Part shown: piece after piece, positions 12,335 through 33,744 of the stretch
Position numbering within the stretch: position 1 is the first letter of the stretch
How the letters are laid out: each line of letters opens with the position of its first letter
Assembly: GCF_025146565.1 (NCBI RefSeq)
Contig: NZ_CP102258.1
Coordinates: 3,442,001 to 3,506,000, forward strand
Source: Bacteroides eggerthii
GTDB taxonomy: Bacteria; Bacteroidota; Bacteroidia; Bacteroidales; Bacteroidaceae
Direction: 5' to 3'
DNA: 64,000 nt
Position numbers and translations under genes: made by a program
The notes under the pieces: generated by a model
The model's database searches: none
Told to the model about the DNA's origin: nothing
The model's input: only the letters and a program-made list of their open reading frames with translations

Positions 12335-13225
12335 TTGCCAACTATCAATTATAAAATCCACGAGGTAAGTCCCTACATCAACTGGATCTATTTTTTCCAT
12401 GCATGGGGCTTCCAACCCAGGTTTGCGGCAATTGCCAATATCCATGGCTGTGATTCCTGTCGTGCCATGTGGCTCGCATCTTTTCCTCAAGAAGACCGCG
12501 CCAAAGCAGCTGAAGCCATGCAGTTGTTTAAGGAAGCAAATAGAATTCTTAACCGATTGGATGAGGATATTACGGTTCAATGTATCTATAGATTGTGCCA
12601 TACTAATGCAGAAGATGATAACCTCATCATTGAAGGTACGTTGTTTCCCTTACTCCGCCAGCAGACCCCCAATCCGGACGGAAGCCCGTTCCTCTGCTTG
12701 AGTGACTTTATACGCCCTCTTTCATCCGGCATAGCAGATACCATAGGTCTGTTCGCATCTTCTATCAGTCCAGAGGTTGAAGAATATTATAAGGATGACC
12801 CCTATAAACATCTCCTTGTACAAACCCTATCGGACCGCCTTGCCGAAGCAGCAACGGAGAAAATGCATGAATACGTACGTAAGGTAGCTTGGGGCTATGC
12901 TCCCGATGAATCGTTTTCCATCCCAGACTTATTGGTTGAGAAATATCAGGGTATCCGTCCTGCAGTGGGCTACCCCTCCCTGCCCGACCAGTCTGTGAAT
13001 TTTATATTGAACGAACTGCTGGACATGGAACAAATAGGCATCACACTAACCGAAAATGGAGCCATGCATCCGCATGCCTCCGTCTGCGGTCTTATGCTGT
13101 CACATCCCCGGTCACGTTATTTTGCCGTAGGAAAGATTGATGAAGACCAATTGGAAGATTATGCCCGCCGACGTGGCAGACCGATTGACGAAATGCGAAA
13201 ATTTCTGGCTGCAAACCTGAGATAA
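12335..13225 (+). CDS. Stand-alone methionine synthase (MetH) reactivation-domain protein
   Basis: 296 residues matching only the C-terminal AdoMet-binding activation domain of cobalamin-dependent methionine synthase. Recognisable parts are FFHAWG near the N-terminus, RPAVGYPSLPDQS at 208-220 (family form RPAxGYPxxPDH), and the C-terminal MHPHASVCGLMLSHPRSRYFAVGKIDEDQLEDYARR. That domain binds S-adenosylmethionine and re-methylates cob(II)alamin when it has been oxidised. No homocysteine, folate or B12-binding domains are present, so it must act in trans on a separate MetH. The reading frame has no ATG until far into the domain; I use TTG at 12335, giving MPTINYKIHEV. A nearby ATC or ATT start cannot be excluded. 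Confidence 0.85.
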   Translation: MPTINYKIHEVSPYINWIYFFHAWGFQPRFAAIANIHGCDSCRAMWLASFPQEDRAKAAEAMQLFKEANRILNRLDEDITVQCIYRLCHTNAEDDNLIIEGTLFPLLRQQTPNPDGSPFLCLSDFIRPLSSGIADTIGLFASSISPEVEEYYKDDPYKHLLVQTLSDRLAEAATEKMHEYVRKVAWGYAPDESFSIPDLLVEKYQGIRPAVGYPSLPDQSVNFILNELLDMEQIGITLTENGAMHPHASVCGLMLSHPRSRYFAVGKIDEDQLEDYARRRGRPIDEMRKFLAANLR

Positions 13226-27997: not shown

Positions 27998-29200
27998 CTA
28001 TTTTCCTATTGGCTGTATCTGCCTTCTTACTTCCTTGGATATTTCCAAAAACATATAATTCAATTTACCGGAGTGAATACCTTTTTCATTTTCCTTATAT
28101 TTCCTGTTTGCATACTCTTTAGACTTATCAAAAGTGATACGGGACATCTGATTCTGTGTTTTTCCGATCATAGTAGAGTCCAATTGTTCATCAGGAAAAA
28201 AATCATCCAAATCAACATCACCAATCATAGTCGTTTCAAGGAACTTCATGTCTTTGTGATTTGCATCAGTATAATACCCCACAAACATATGACCGGGTGT
28301 CCGCACCAATATCGGCTCCATATTAATGGCACGAAGCAAAGAAGCAAACAAGACGCTGCCATCCACACAATTTATTTGCGACGATTCCAAAGCATCATCA
28401 AACGTACGGACCCGTTGAGAGAAAACAACATTACTGGACAAACTTGTGTTGGATACGGAACTATAACGGAATTTGCGTTTCTGCAAAACATTCCATAAAG
28501 CGTAAACCTGATTATCAACAGCCTCAGGACCTCCCTGATAACCAAGGAAACGATTCACAATGCGAGTGTTCAAAGCCTCACGCAACAGTTGGTCTATCAT
28601 AGGATTTTCCTCATTTACATAAGCGGCAAAGAAGATTCCGGTATCATGAAATTTTGTACCTCCTGTCACATACCCCAATAGGCACTCATTAATGCTACGT
28701 ACAGAAAAAGTACGTACCCGTTGCCCCAACTCTTTTCCGTTCATTTCCAACGTAACGGCAACGCTAATCGGCTCCGCCTGATTATTATTTCTCAATGCTT
28801 CATAATTCCAAATAATATCAGGGTAAATAATATATTCAGTACGCGGCTTCGCCAATACGAACTCCGAAACAGAACGGGAGAAAAAAGGAGTTTCCGCCAC
28901 CTCTACCCTCACCCGGCTATATGCTTTTGCGGAACGCACCCTCACTGCAATGCATGATTTCGGGTTTCCGACAAACATCGAGTCCACCGGTATAATGACC
29001 TGAGCATCCGTTGTCGCAACACATAAAATACTGGAAGGGAAAATATTTCCACCTAATTCATCCGTTATCTCAAAACCTGAACTGAAAGGAGCAACGTTCA
29101 GCCAAATCGAACCGATGATTACAGCCACCGATACAGCACCAACCAGCGGCATGCACCATTTAGACCGCCTCCTTCTCATTATATTCAATAATTCTTTCAT
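27998..29200 (-). CDS. Membrane-anchored transglutaminase-like protein
   Basis: About 400 residues from the ATG at 29200; an in-frame start at 29227 lies inside the promoter region and is less likely. Positively charged MRRRRSKW precedes one membrane helix (about 16-36), so most of the protein is periplasmic. The C-terminal half has the transglutaminase-like triad: Cys in QINCVDGSVLFASLLRA, His in TPGHMFVGYY and an acidic residue in FLETTMIGD. Such domains act as proteases or amide transferases in the envelope. The substrate is unknown. It diverges from the response-regulator gene at 29394, with back-to-back promoters. Confidence 0.75.
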   Translation of the reverse strand: MKELLNIMRRRRSKWCMPLVGAVSVAVIIGSIWLNVAPFSSGFEITDELGGNIFPSSILCVATTDAQVIIPVDSMFVGNPKSCIAVRVRSAKAYSRVRVEVAETPFFSRSVSEFVLAKPRTEYIIYPDIIWNYEALRNNNQAEPISVAVTLEMNGKELGQRVRTFSVRSINECLLGYVTGGTKFHDTGIFFAAYVNEENPMIDQLLREALNTRIVNRFLGYQGGPEAVDNQVYALWNVLQKRKFRYSSVSNTSLSSNVVFSQRVRTFDDALESSQINCVDGSVLFASLLRAINMEPILVRTPGHMFVGYYTDANHKDMKFLETTMIGDVDLDDFFPDEQLDSTMIGKTQNQMSRITFDKSKEYANRKYKENEKGIHSGKLNYMFLEISKEVRRQIQPIGK

Positions 29201-29224
29201 ATAGCCACCAACCTTAAAACAATA

Positions 29225-29232
29225 CAAAGATA
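29225..29232 (-). promoter_or_regulatory. -7 element for the transglutaminase-like gene
   Basis: Reads TATCTTTG on the minus strand; exact TAnnTTTG, 25 bp before the ATG at 29200. The -33 element is not clear. Confidence 0.5.
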
Positions 29233-29393: not shown

Positions 29394-30083
29394 ATGAACG
29401 AATACCGGATTTTAGTTGTAGACGACGAAGAAGATTTATGCGAAATCTTAAAGTTCAATCTTGAAAACGAAGGTTACGTAGTAGACACCGCCAATTCCGC
29501 AGAAGAAGCCTTGAAATTGGATATCAGTGCCTACAATTTGCTATTGTTGGATGTGATGATGGGAGAAATCTCCGGATTCAAAATGGCAAGTATGCTGAAA
29601 AAAGACAAAAAGACAGCCAAAGTTCCTATCATATTCATTACCGCTAAAGACACAGAAAATGATACGGTAACCGGATTTAATCTAGGCGCAGATGATTATA
29701 TCTCCAAACCGTTTTCTCTGCGCGAAGTAGCGGCACGCGTCAAAGCCGTACTGCGCCGTACCCAGCAAGGAGAAAGAGAACGTGCGCCAGAACAAATCGT
29801 CTATGAATCACTGGTGCTTGACATCATCAAAAAGAAAGTAAGTATAGACGGTGAAGAAGCGCCACTTACCAAAAAGGAATTCGAGATATTGCTCCTACTA
29901 CTTCAAAACAAAGGGCGCGTATTCTCACGTGAGGACATTTTAGGACGTATCTGGAGTGACGAAGTATATGTACTGGACCGCACCATAGACGTAAACATCA
30001 CTCGTCTGCGCAAAAAAATAGGAATTTACGGCAAATGCATTGTAACTCGTTTAGGATATGGATATTGTTTCGAAGCCCAATAA
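29394..30083 (+). CDS. OmpR/PhoB-family response regulator
   Basis: 229 residues. The receiver domain has the acidic pocket VVDDEED, phosphoacceptor Asp53 (LLLLDVMMG), Thr84 and Lys105 (YISKPFSLRE). A linker leads to a winged-helix DNA-binding domain (about 130-229, LTKKEFEILLLLLQNKGRVFSREDIL through TRLRKKIG and GYGYCFE). It pairs with the kinase gene that overlaps its end by 26 bp. It differs at the N-terminus from what I remember of RprY, so I give no symbol. Targets are unknown; the divergent transglutaminase-like gene is one candidate. Confidence 0.92.
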   Translation: MNEYRILVVDDEEDLCEILKFNLENEGYVVDTANSAEEALKLDISAYNLLLLDVMMGEISGFKMASMLKKDKKTAKVPIIFITAKDTENDTVTGFNLGADDYISKPFSLREVAARVKAVLRRTQQGERERAPEQIVYESLVLDIIKKKVSIDGEEAPLTKKEFEILLLLLQNKGRVFSREDILGRIWSDEVYVLDRTIDVNITRLRKKIGIYGKCIVTRLGYGYCFEAQ

Positions 30084-31854
30084 TGACAGACACGTCCTGT
30101 CATTCAGCCGGAAGTTGTTCCTTTCGGTGATTTCATTGTTTCTTGTTTTTGCTGTCTGCTTCATCGCCTATCAGTATCAGCGGGAAAAAGAGTACAAAGT
30201 AGAGCTGCTTGACACACAACTTCAGGACTACAATGAACGTCTGCAACAGGAACTGCGAAGCACTCCCGACAGCTTATGGACCTCCGTCTTGAACCAATAT
30301 ATAGTCAAAGGGTCGAACAAGGATCTCCGCGTCACTATCGTAAATCTACATGGAGACGTGCTTTATGACAGCTACAACGAAACGTCCCAAGAAGTATTCA
30401 ACAACCATATCAATCGCCAGGAAATTCAAAAGGCACTAAAAAACGGAAAAGGATATGATTTAAGACGTACTTCCGAAACAACCGGCATACCCTATTTCTA
30501 TTCGGCCACTCTCTATCCCCATTATATCATCCGTTCAGCATTGCCCTACAACGTAAATCTGATAAACAGCCTGGCTGCCGACCAGCATTATCTTTGGTTT
30601 ACGACTATCGTTACTCTATTGCTGATATTTGTATTCTACAAATTTACATCCAAACTGGGTATGGCAATCAGCCACTTACGCGAGTTTGCCAAACGTGCCG
30701 ATAGAAACGAACCAGTGGAAACCGATATACAATCTGCTTTCCCACACAATGAACTCGGCGAAATCTCCCAACATATCATACAAATATATAAACGCCTGCG
30801 TGAAACCAAAGAAGCACTATATATCGAGCGTGAAAAACTGATCACCCATTTGCAGACCTCTCGCGAAGGATTGGGAGTATTTACTAAAGACAAGAAGGAA
30901 ATTCTCGTCAACAACCTTTTTACTCAATACAGCAACTTAATTTCAGACTCTAATCTACAAACCACTGAAGAGATATTCTCTGTCTGTGAGTTTCAGAAAA
31001 TTACCGACTTCATCAGCAAGGCGCAAAGACGCCCTTCGGATAAAGAAGAAAAACGACTGTCCATCAACATTAATAAAAACGGGCGTATATTCATCGTAGA
31101 GTGCATCATCTTCCAAGACCTGAGTTTTGAAATCTCCATTAATGACATCACACAGGAGGAAGAACAGGTACGCTTGAAACGCCAACTGACACAGAACATA
31201 GCCCATGAACTGAAAACCCCCGTAAGCAGCATACAAGGCTATTTGGAAACCATTGTCAACAACGAAAACATTCCCCATGAGAAGATACAGACTTTTCTCG
31301 AACGATGCTATGCTCAAAGCAACCGCCTCAGCCGCTTATTACGGGACATTTCCGTACTGACACGCATGGACGAAGCAGCCAATATGATTGATATGGAAAA
31401 AGTGGACATCAGTATGCTCGTCTCCAGCATAGTCAATGAAGTTTCATTGGAACTGGAAGAGAAGCGTATAACTGTAGTCAACAGTCTGCAACCCAAAATA
31501 CAGCTGAAAGGTAACTATTCACTGCTCTATTCTATCTTCCGTAACCTAATGGACAATGCCATAGCCTATGCCGGAACAAATATCCATATTAATATCAACT
31601 GTTTCCGCGAAGACGAGAATTTCTATTATTTTAGTTTTGCCGATACAGGAATAGGCGTTTCACCGGAACACCTGAACCGTTTGTTCGAACGCTTTTACCG
31701 CGTAGATAAAGGACGCTCACGTAAGCTGGGCGGTACAGGTTTGGGGCTTGCTATCGTGAAAAACGCTGTCATTATTCATGGTGGAACAATTTCCGCCAAA
31801 AATAATCAAGGTGGCGGACTGGAATTTGTATTTACGCTGGCAAAGGAGAAATAA
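30058..31854 (+). CDS. Membrane sensor histidine kinase
   Basis: 598 residues. Helices near 23-42 and 178-198 bracket a ~135-residue periplasmic sensor. A HAMP-like stretch and a PAS-like region (about 265-365) follow. The HisKA domain has the phosphorylated His383 in NIAHELKTPVSSIQGYLE. The ATPase domain shows NLMDNAIAYA (N box), DTGIGVS (G1), FERFYRVDKGRSR and GGTGLGLAIVK (G2). The layout is PhoR-like. The start codon overlaps the regulator gene by 26 bp, indicating translational coupling. Confidence 0.92.
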   Translation: MDIVSKPNNDRHVLSFSRKLFLSVISLFLVFAVCFIAYQYQREKEYKVELLDTQLQDYNERLQQELRSTPDSLWTSVLNQYIVKGSNKDLRVTIVNLHGDVLYDSYNETSQEVFNNHINRQEIQKALKNGKGYDLRRTSETTGIPYFYSATLYPHYIIRSALPYNVNLINSLAADQHYLWFTTIVTLLLIFVFYKFTSKLGMAISHLREFAKRADRNEPVETDIQSAFPHNELGEISQHIIQIYKRLRETKEALYIEREKLITHLQTSREGLGVFTKDKKEILVNNLFTQYSNLISDSNLQTTEEIFSVCEFQKITDFISKAQRRPSDKEEKRLSININKNGRIFIVECIIFQDLSFEISINDITQEEEQVRLKRQLTQNIAHELKTPVSSIQGYLETIVNNENIPHEKIQTFLERCYAQSNRLSRLLRDISVLTRMDEAANMIDMEKVDISMLVSSIVNEVSLELEEKRITVVNSLQPKIQLKGNYSLLYSIFRNLMDNAIAYAGTNIHININCFREDENFYYFSFADTGIGVSPEHLNRLFERFYRVDKGRSRKLGGTGLGLAIVKNAVIIHGGTISAKNNQGGGLEFVFTLAKEK

Positions 31855-31889
31855 TTTTCCTATTCATTCCCGTTTGTTACTTTTTTCAT

Positions 31890-31897
31890 TATCTTTG
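31890..31897 (+). promoter_or_regulatory. -7 element of the riboswitch/tnaA transcript
   Basis: TATCTTTG, an exact TAnnTTTG, just upstream of the cobalamin riboswitch. A TTTG at 31873-31876 is too close to be an ideal -33 element. I see no other promoter between here and tnaA. Confidence 0.6.
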
Positions 31898-31899
31898 CA

Positions 31900-32095
31900 A
31901 TGCATTGGTTTGCTTCCTTTTTTCAAAGGAGGCAATTAAAAGGGAATCAGGTGTAAGTCCTGGACAGTCCCGCTGCTGTAAGTTTCACACAATGTTGCAG
32001 ACAATAAAACTCTCTACCCATGCCACTGGAAATATATTCCGGGAAGGCAGTCTGTAACAGAAACAAGTCAGAAGACCTGCCATGCACCATTTTAT
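31900..32095 (+). promoter_or_regulatory. Cobalamin (B12) riboswitch in the tnaA leader
   Basis: All the landmark parts of the cobalamin aptamer are present in order: GGGAATCAGGTGTAAGTCC and GGACAGTCCCGCTGCTGTAA (31942-31981), a GCCACTGG internal segment (about 32019-32026), GGGAAGGC (32041-32048), and the B12 box AAGTCAGAAGACCTGCC (32065-32081). TGCATTGG near 31901 and CCATGCA near 32081 can close the outer helix P1. An intrinsic terminator follows at 32219-32250 and tnaA at 32371. The natural reading is transcription attenuation when adenosylcobalamin binds. These elements usually govern B12 uptake or synthesis genes. Confidence 0.92.
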
Positions 32096-32218
32096 CATTG
32101 CTTTCGAGGAAAAAGCGTTGAGTCTAATGAACCGGATAAATCATCCAATCATTTCATTCATCCAAACTCTTTCAAAGAAAGTAAAAAGGAATAAACTCTG
32201 CCAAGTTTATTTAAATGA

Positions 32219-32250
32219 TGTCCGGTCGAAGTGATTCGCCCGGACATTTT
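32219..32250 (+). terminator. Intrinsic terminator of the riboswitch expression platform
   Basis: TGTCCGG (32219-32225) pairs with CCGGACA (32240-32246); inside, CGAA pairs with TTCG over a GTGA loop. TTTTCTT follows directly. It lies about 125 nt past the B12 box and 120 nt before tnaA. Confidence 0.85.
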
Positions 32251-32370
32251 CTTACAAAAAGTCACAAATCTATTGTCAGTCACCTATAAAATCACTACAT
32301 TCGGCACAAAAAGACGTTATAAACAGATTTAACCGTTAACTTATTGTCTAACTCAATAAAAAAATAAACT

Positions 32371-33744
32371 ATGGAATTACCATTTGCCGAATCATGGAAA
32401 ATAAAAATGGTGGAGCCTATCCGCAAAAGTACCCGTCAAGAACGTGAACAATGGTTGAAAGAAGCCCATTACAATGTTTTTCAACTGAAATCAGAACAAG
32501 TCTACATTGACCTCATCACCGACTCTGGAACAGGAGCCATGAGCGACCGGCAATGGGCAGGCATTATGCTTGGAGATGAAAGTTATGCAGGCGCTTCTTC
32601 TTTCTTTAACCTGAAAGAAGTTATCACCCGCCTGACCGGTTTTGAATACATAATCCCTACTCATCAAGGACGTGCAGCTGAGAATGTATTATTCTCTTAT
32701 CTGATACATGAAGGAGATATTGTGCCGGGAAATTCCCATTTTGATACTACCAAAGGACATATCGAAAGCCGAAAGGCAATCGCATTGGACTGTACAATAG
32801 ACGAAGCCAAACAAACACAATTGGAGATCCCGTTTAAAGGAAATGTAGACCCGGCCAAACTGGAAAAAGTGTTGCAGGAACATAATGACCGCATACCGTT
32901 TATCATCGTCACTATCACCAATAACACAGCCGGAGGTCAACCCGTATCCATGCAGAACTTACGTGATGTCCGGAGCATTGCCGACAAATACAACAAGCCT
33001 GTTCTATTCGACTCTGCCCGTTTTGCCGAAAATGCCTATTTCATTAAGACACGCGAAGAAGGCTACAAGGATAAAAGCATCAAGGAAATCACTAAAGAAA
33101 TGTTTGCACTCGCAGACGGTATGACAATGAGTGCCAAGAAAGACGGCATCGTAAATATGGGCGGATTTATAGCAACCCGCCGACAGGATTGGTACGAAGG
33201 AGCAAAAGGATTTTGTGTGCAGTTTGAAGGCTACCTTACCTATGGCGGTATGAATGGTCGCGACATGAATGCACTTGCTATCGGTCTGGATGAAAACACC
33301 GAATTCGATAATCTTGAAACCCGTATTCGTCAGGTAGAATATCTGGCAAGAAAATTAGACGAATATAAAATACCTTATCAACGCCCTGCCGGAGGCCATG
33401 CCATTTTTGTAGACGCCCCAAAGGTACTGACGCATGTTCCCAAAGAAGAGTTCCCGGCACAGACATTGACCATTGAGTTGTATCTGGAAGCCGGCATACG
33501 CGGATGCGAGATAGGTTACCTACTTGCCGATCGCGATCCGGTTACCCGAAAAAACCGTTTCAACGGACTGGATTTACTCCGCCTTGCCATTCCACGCCGC
33601 GTGTATACGGATAACCATATGAATGTAATAGCCGCTGCACTCAAAAATGTATATGACAAACGCGAAACAATCACAAGAGGCGTACGCATTGCCTGGGAAG
33701 CTCCATTAATGCGCCATTTTACAGTACAGTTGGAAAGATTATAA
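32371..33744 (+). CDS. tnaA: Tryptophanase
   Basis: 457 residues of the beta-eliminating lyase family. VYIDLITDSGTGAMSD, IPTHQGRAAEN, TNNTAGGQPVS, FDSARFAENAYF and the PLP lysine in MSAKKDGIVNMGG (Lys257) are all in place. It splits tryptophan into indole, pyruvate and ammonia in the cytoplasm. Tyrosine phenol-lyase has the same fold; I prefer tryptophanase because the sequence agrees closely with what I remember of the Bacteroides enzyme. It stands alone, with no permease gene, behind a cobalamin riboswitch and terminator. The tnaC-type leader peptide known from E. coli is not seen. Confidence 0.92.
   Translation: MELPFAESWKIKMVEPIRKSTRQEREQWLKEAHYNVFQLKSEQVYIDLITDSGTGAMSDRQWAGIMLGDESYAGASSFFNLKEVITRLTGFEYIIPTHQGRAAENVLFSYLIHEGDIVPGNSHFDTTKGHIESRKAIALDCTIDEAKQTQLEIPFKGNVDPAKLEKVLQEHNDRIPFIIVTITNNTAGGQPVSMQNLRDVRSIADKYNKPVLFDSARFAENAYFIKTREEGYKDKSIKEITKEMFALADGMTMSAKKDGIVNMGGFIATRRQDWYEGAKGFCVQFEGYLTYGGMNGRDMNALAIGLDENTEFDNLETRIRQVEYLARKLDEYKIPYQRPAGGHAIFVDAPKVLTHVPKEEFPAQTLTIELYLEAGIRGCEIGYLLADRDPVTRKNRFNGLDLLRLAIPRRVYTDNHMNVIAAALKNVYDKRETITRGVRIAWEAPLMRHFTVQLERL

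Follow-up and report, generated by a model that had tools for sequence, protein, structure and literature searches.

A cobalamin riboswitch directly upstream of tnaA

The 64 kb stretch of DNA analysed here (the window) carries a cobalamin riboswitch, an intrinsic terminator and a tryptophanase gene, tnaA, in direct succession behind a phoB-phoR pair (Table 1). The aptamer aligns to RF00174 over its full length (model positions 1-189 of 189; 105.7 bits against a gathering score of 31.5; E = 1.9e-25) and is the sole Rfam match at the gathering threshold within the window. Two further cobalamin riboswitches bring the total for the 4.2 Mb genome to three, and these precede a gene for a DUF4465 protein and a gene with a TonB-receptor plug domain, which are the kinds of genes that compose the btu locus. 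On its 3' side the aptamer carries an element that we take to be the B12 box, whose AGTCAGAAGACCT is unchanged across 15 aligned riboswitches. A first-pass annotation of this DNA had proposed that a complete B12 aptamer, B12 box included, is followed by an intrinsic terminator and then by tnaA with no other gene in between, and all of these parts of its description are borne out. Judging from its match to the family, the aptamer is predicted to bind cobalamin or a related cobamide.

Bacteroides promoters follow the consensus TAnnTTTG at -7 and TTTG at about -33, as given in excerpts of PMC7366714. The -7 element of promoter P1 matches this consensus perfectly and would place the transcription start at about 31903; a TTTG at the usual -33 spacing was not seen when P1 was inspected by eye. 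Among the 13 genomes that share the direct riboswitch-tnaA arrangement (see below), the element reads TATCTTTG in 12 and TAACTTTG in one.

Behind the aptamer lies a structured expression platform that also occurs in the btuB-linked copies of the riboswitch at this locus. Aligning 19 of 24 riboswitch loci, we found that the platform and terminator together form 37 pairs, with 99.4% of 703 cells paired and six pairs changed on both sides, against 33-54% of cells paired when the pairing was slid out of place. The five loci left out of the alignment and pair counts are two near copies of L116 (L136 and L138), one with a B12 box that is off pattern (L114), and L128 and L100, which cover a single site of one genome and in which this terminator was not found. 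Unpaired platform stretches (CGAGGAA, TTGAGTCT and CTCTGCCAAG) are almost invariant in the 19 sequences, and this near-invariance seems to exceed what a plain terminator needs.

The terminator hairpin has a folding energy of -18.9 kcal/mol (z = -4.4), which none of 200 shuffles equalled in stability, and it is included in a plain fold of the whole leader. Its stem occurs in all 13 direct genomes (-17.2 to -20.4 kcal/mol). A simple pattern scan did not list a terminator at this site, probably owing to a mismatch inside the stem. The GTCCGG of its 5' arm is complementary to CCGGAT in the platform, which could act as an antiterminator strand mutually exclusive with the terminator; the CCGGAY x GTCCGG pairing fits 97.4% of 114 cells in the 19 sequences, and since it shows no covariation we put the antiterminator forward as a proposal.

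The TnaA of the window passes the NCBIfam TnaA equivalog NF053783 (934.4 bits, cut-off 750) and is 95% identical to B. fluxus TnaA, while it falls below the cut-offs of the tyrosine phenol-lyase model (554.2 vs 720.7) and of an older tryptophanase equivalog, TIGR02617 (516.2 vs 825.8). Excerpts of PMC10746243 describe BT1492 of B. thetaiotaomicron as a tryptophanase that produces indole, and the window enzyme, which appears to correspond to it, is by analogy predicted to make indole. Elsewhere in the window, a 409-aa protein (27998-29227, minus strand) gives a weak partial match to the NCBIfam anti-phage ProA model (82.9 bits, cut-off 1500).

Table 1. Features of the riboswitch-tnaA locus, in window coordinates.
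Feature	Position	Strand	Basis or remark
phoB-phoR pair, conserved landmark of the locus	29394..31854	+	Profile models; gene order in relatives
Cobalamin riboswitch aptamer (RF00174)	31888..32098	+	Rfam covariance-model match, 105.7 bits
Promoter P1, -7 element TATCTTTG (Bacteroides sigma-ABfr type)	31890..31897	+	Read from sequence
Presumed B12 box, 3' side of aptamer	32065..32081	+	AAGTCAGAAGACCTGCC, read from sequence
Structured expression platform, common to btuB-linked riboswitches of this locus	32099..32215	+	19-sequence alignment
CCGGAT, candidate antiterminator strand	32132..32137	+	Inferred; complementary to GTCCGG (32220-32225) in the terminator 5' arm
Intrinsic terminator, stem GATGTCCGG / CCGGACATT and T-rich tail	32217..32253	+	Folding, shuffle control
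Predicted promoter P2 of tnaA: TTG (32273-32275), 20 nt, TACATTCG (32296-32303)	32273..32303	+	Conserved motif
tnaA, tryptophanase, 457 aa	32371..33744	+	Sole same-strand gene between the riboswitch and the next, convergent gene
4'-phosphopantetheinyl transferase-like gene, convergent with tnaA	33745..34374	-	AcpT model 29.2 bits, below cut-off of 174

A second promoter motif beyond the terminator

The first-pass annotation had also seen no promoter between the terminator and tnaA, and this part of it does not hold. A conserved Bacteroides-type motif, P2, ends 67 nt 5' of the tnaA ATG and is present in all 13 genomes with the direct arrangement. In an alignment of eight species, the invariant columns of the 31-base P2 stretch are exactly the eight motif bases TTG, TA, TT and G; such a coincidence arises in 1 in 7.9 million placements, a figure that is descriptive as the motif was spotted by eye on the same alignment. 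Several relatives also carry a similar AAAAGTCAC stretch 5' of P2, at about 32257-32266. Nearer the gene, a second stretch conserved in the eight aligned species, about TATTGTCAAA (32337-32351), lies some 20-30 nt 5' of the tnaA start.

We scanned distinct upstream regions for TTG-N20-TAnnTTnG within 130 nt of the tnaA start, using shuffled controls. The motif was present in 27 of 33 regions from genes whose TnaA is at least 89% identical (shuffled mean 0.05, maximum 1), in 7 of 28 at 85-89% identity (shuffled mean 0.11, maximum 1) and in 4 of 32 below 85% (shuffled mean 0.09, maximum 2). The 33 close regions comprise nine direct species, all with the motif, and 24 others, some Prevotella among these, of which 18 have it; B. 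neonati is one of the six that lack it. With several spacings allowed, a looser scan gave weak separation from shuffles for many single sequences.

The motif is also found where the riboswitch no longer precedes tnaA. At locus L126 the riboswitch is gone and tnaA is kept, with a phoR-tnaA gap of only about 150 nt that includes P2, and in the B. cellulosilyticus group tnaA has been turned round yet the P2 motif is kept (L094, L095, L098 and L103). This conservation suggests that tnaA has its own promoter downstream of the terminator. P2 may carry most tnaA transcription, which would leave the riboswitch of little weight.

Two other modes of control were considered for the leader. Translational control by hiding of the tnaA start was set aside in view of the strong terminator and of a P2 that starts beyond it. 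A leader-encoded small protein was rejected because the short ORFs between riboswitch and tnaA vary across the eight species, those of the window being broken or replaced in the others.

Gene orders in relatives and origin of the arrangement

We searched 158 genomes of the genus with a 32-base platform motif, allowing up to two mismatches, and found it in 69; tnaA is present in 54 of the 158. In 13 of the 54 tnaA-bearing genomes the platform lies about 240-565 nt 5' of tnaA on the same strand, which we term the direct arrangement. We examined gene order in each of the 13, counting ORFs of at least 80 aa, and P1, the aptamer core, the terminator and P2 are kept in every one. On the riboswitch strand tnaA is the only gene that follows, except in L122 and L124, where a small acetyltransferase gene comes after tnaA. 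B. heparinolyticus has about 350 nt of extra, partly repetitive sequence between terminator and P2. In two direct genomes, G056 (L124) and G169 (L188), tnaA is interrupted and the riboswitch is intact; the interruptions could be due to mutation or assembly error.

A riboswitch model, R1, was run on 80 named tnaA loci that extend at most 6 kb to each side, some on contigs that end within 1 kb upstream. The 11 loci with a match include four direct ones (B. fluxus, B. cutis, Mediterranea massiliensis and B. heparinolyticus), four with btu genes between riboswitch and tnaA, two with tnaA turned round (B. timonensis and B. cellulosilyticus) and one with a convergent gene pair between (B. neonati). 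Run on 16 cobalamin riboswitches of other genera in the order, R1 recovered all 16, and it found no B12 switch before tnaA in the non-Bacteroides loci among the 80. A candidate from a regex match in L042 was dropped as unsupported by R1. To the question raised by the first-pass annotation, whether related genomes keep the riboswitch next to tnaA or next to btuB, the answer is both, depending on lineage.

Other neighbours of the riboswitch were observed as well. In B. neonati (L018:1850-2270) the cobalamin riboswitch is intact, promoter motif and terminator included, but is an orphan: the next genes, for an amino acid permease and a decarboxylase, are on the opposite strand. In the B. cellulosilyticus group (L116, L136, L127 and L189) the riboswitch lies directly 5' of a small acetyltransferase gene (Acetyltransf_CG) with the turned-round tnaA beside it; in L138 this acetyltransferase gene is a recent remnant. 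G166, from the same group, was given up as an orphan case when an acetyltransferase gene was found behind its riboswitch, and in G057 the riboswitch stands beside a turned-round tnaA and the shared terminator was not found.

The btu-linked loci suggest where the direct arrangement came from. In B. xylanisolvens-like genomes the order runs phoB-phoR, thioredoxin-like gene, riboswitch, TonB receptor, DUF5074, DUF4465, tnaA and acetyltransferase. Three Bacteroides loci (L191, L192 and L193; TnaA 84-87% identical) have riboswitch-btuB-btuG-DUF4465-like genes before tnaA, with further ORFs between these and tnaA in L192, and L195 and L196 keep the btu genes in genomes from which tnaA is absent. In a midpoint-rooted tree built by quick search from seven neighbouring proteins of 25 loci, with one long branch and some rows under half filled, the nine sampled direct species group with the riboswitch-less L126 (SH-aLRT 94). 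The riboswitch probably once served B12-uptake (btu) genes, and the simplest account of the direct arrangement is a single loss of btu genes between riboswitch and tnaA. The btu genes may instead have been lost several times independently, in which case the inferred selection would have acted over a shorter time. In six of six btu-linked loci examined, the last btu gene and tnaA are separated by a strong hairpin with a T-rich tail (-18 to -21 kcal/mol, with no shuffle control), so that tnaA was probably a separate unit, not under B12 control, before the loss. Tryptophanase had been flagged in the first-pass annotation as an unexpected target for a B12 riboswitch; the arrangement is real and conserved in 13 direct genomes, and its position becomes less puzzling because the loss of btu genes explains it most simply.

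Selection on the riboswitch and control of tnaA

Conservation was measured in eight of the 13 direct genomes, G056 being represented by its longest tnaA piece only. The aptamer has a mean pairwise identity of 0.78, the platform of 0.84 and the terminator of 0.90, whereas four-fold sites reach 0.44 in tnaA, 0.46 in phoR and 0.48 in gldE; the P1 and P2 stretches stand at 0.63 and 0.61, and the spacers beside P2 at 0.58-0.62. Since the three riboswitch parts are 78-90% identical against 44-48% at silent sites, the riboswitch is, by this comparison, under purifying selection in the direct clade. An intact switch does not prove a target in cis, because the B. neonati copy has no adjacent same-strand gene. 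The two direct genomes in which an intact switch precedes an interrupted tnaA also weigh against the reading that follows.

We consider it reasonably probable that a B12-off termination riboswitch, inherited from the btu locus, gates a share of tnaA expression beside a B12-independent P2. The DNA itself displays the aptamer, the terminator and two promoter motifs, all of them conserved, together with gene orders that suggest btu loss; from these we infer the direction of control, the activity of the promoters, and the existence and size of read-through as follows. Transcription from P1 would begin just 5' of the aptamer. With cobamide bound, the terminator would form and the P1 transcript would end there; with cobamide absent, transcription would continue through the P2 region into tnaA. 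P2 would transcribe tnaA at any B12 level, and B12 shortage would add tryptophanase and indole on top of this B12-independent level. Because P2 lies beyond the terminator, B12 could remove only the read-through share of tnaA transcription, and B12 shortage therefore probably raises indole production only in part. The first-pass annotation had B12 repressing indole production outright: the anatomy of a B12-off switch agrees with repression, but P2 would escape it, which leaves the claim standing for the read-through share alone.

It is unlikely, though deserving of some weight, that the riboswitch is a left-over of the btu locus whose terminator mostly insulates a tnaA driven by P2, with no meaningful effect of B12 on indole. 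The relatives with btu genes between riboswitch and tnaA would fit such a history, as would the hairpins with T-rich tails before tnaA in btu-linked loci, the conserved P2, the loss of the riboswitch with retention of tnaA in L126 and the persistence of an orphan riboswitch in B. neonati. However, a useless aptamer should decay, and aptamer and platform are instead far better conserved than four-fold sites. Nor would an insulator require an aptamer or its own promoter, and yet all 13 direct genomes retain the P1 -7 element.

At the other extreme, the riboswitch could be the sole control of tnaA, with all transcription starting 5' of the aptamer and B12 shutting off indole. That no gene intervenes, that the terminator is intact and that the riboswitch is conserved would all suit this reading, but whole control by the riboswitch calls for a promoter-free stretch after the terminator, where we instead predict P2. 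This motif lies beyond the terminator in every direct genome and in 27 of the 33 close upstream regions, it accompanies tnaA without the riboswitch in L126, and it is kept with the turned-round tnaA of the B. cellulosilyticus group; we therefore regard sole control as improbable. Slimmer still is the chance that the riboswitch RNA ending at the terminator (about 350 nt) works in trans as a B12-dependent small RNA with tnaA as a bystander, for which there are precedents elsewhere: several unpaired platform stretches are near-invariant across btu-, tnaA- and acetyltransferase-linked and orphan copies (n = 19), but among loci with gene order examined only B. neonati and B. timonensis have no same-strand gene behind the switch, and B. 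timonensis lost its gene recently, its riboswitch being 99% identical to those of gene-keeping relatives.

Comparison with known systems

One of the described systems closest to the window locus is the cobalamin riboswitch before btuB1 in the btu locus of B. thetaiotaomicron. According to excerpts of PMC12751083, a btuB1 promoter-riboswitch reporter shows activity with methionine that B12 and pseudo-B12 nearly eliminate, and btuB1 is BT_1489, followed by BT_1490 and BT_1491. BT_1492, the tryptophanase described in excerpts of PMC10746243, comes next after BT_1491 by locus-tag number, and BT_1492 has no occurrence in PMC12751083. By gene order, the window riboswitch would be the counterpart of the btuB1 riboswitch and would work likewise. 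Relatives share the same phoBR-switch locus and the same aptamer class, and sampled btuB-linked copies have the same platform with CCGGAC/T and GTCCGG...CCGGAC. The btu locus, however, has btuB, DUF5074 and then DUF4465 or a second DUF5074, all gone in the window, and a hairpin with a T-rich tail precedes its tnaA, whereas tnaA of the window directly follows the riboswitch.

The tna operon of E. coli is controlled by attenuation through TnaC and tryptophan. It resembles the window locus in that transcription terminates in the tnaA leader, but the ligand and sensor differ and no conserved leader ORF was seen in the window locus. Tryptophanase is a PLP-dependent enzyme, and metE is an example of an isozyme gene under a cobalamin riboswitch. 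Cobalamin riboswitches on isozymes of B12-dependent enzymes form a named class in excerpts of PMC3766115; the window locus is like this class in placing a B12 switch on a metabolic enzyme and not on uptake or synthesis, but its tryptophanase replaces no B12 enzyme. A link between a B12 riboswitch and tnaA is absent from titles and abstracts among the literature matches listed, and supplementary tables or subscription papers could hold one. The excerpted texts of PMC11170127, PMC7858274 and PMC10367592 make no such link, nor does 'tna' occur in the excerpted main text of PMC3766115, which covers Bacteroidaceae regulons, supplements aside.

Implications

The models used find metH, in two pieces, but not metE in this genome, and B12 shortage should therefore mean methionine shortage in this organism. 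The larger MetH gene (C1:3520860-3523595, minus strand) covers model positions 2-899, and the C-terminal part (923-1182) is encoded as a protein of its own about 66 kb away (window 12347-13129, plus strand). More tentatively than for partial control itself, the loss of btu genes may have changed the target of the riboswitch and selection may then have kept the new link, with cobamide shortage directly raising tryptophanase in one Bacteroides clade and indole reporting B12 limitation or helping to relieve it.

If true, the locus would illustrate clearly how a riboswitch can change its target by deletion of the intervening genes. The gene orders among relatives (btu genes between, tnaA direct, tnaA turned round, switch lost) provide natural controls that make the link directly testable. 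Indole is a signal to host and microbiota, and through this locus a vitamin contested among gut microbes would partly govern the production of a major microbial signal that is also a uremic-toxin precursor.
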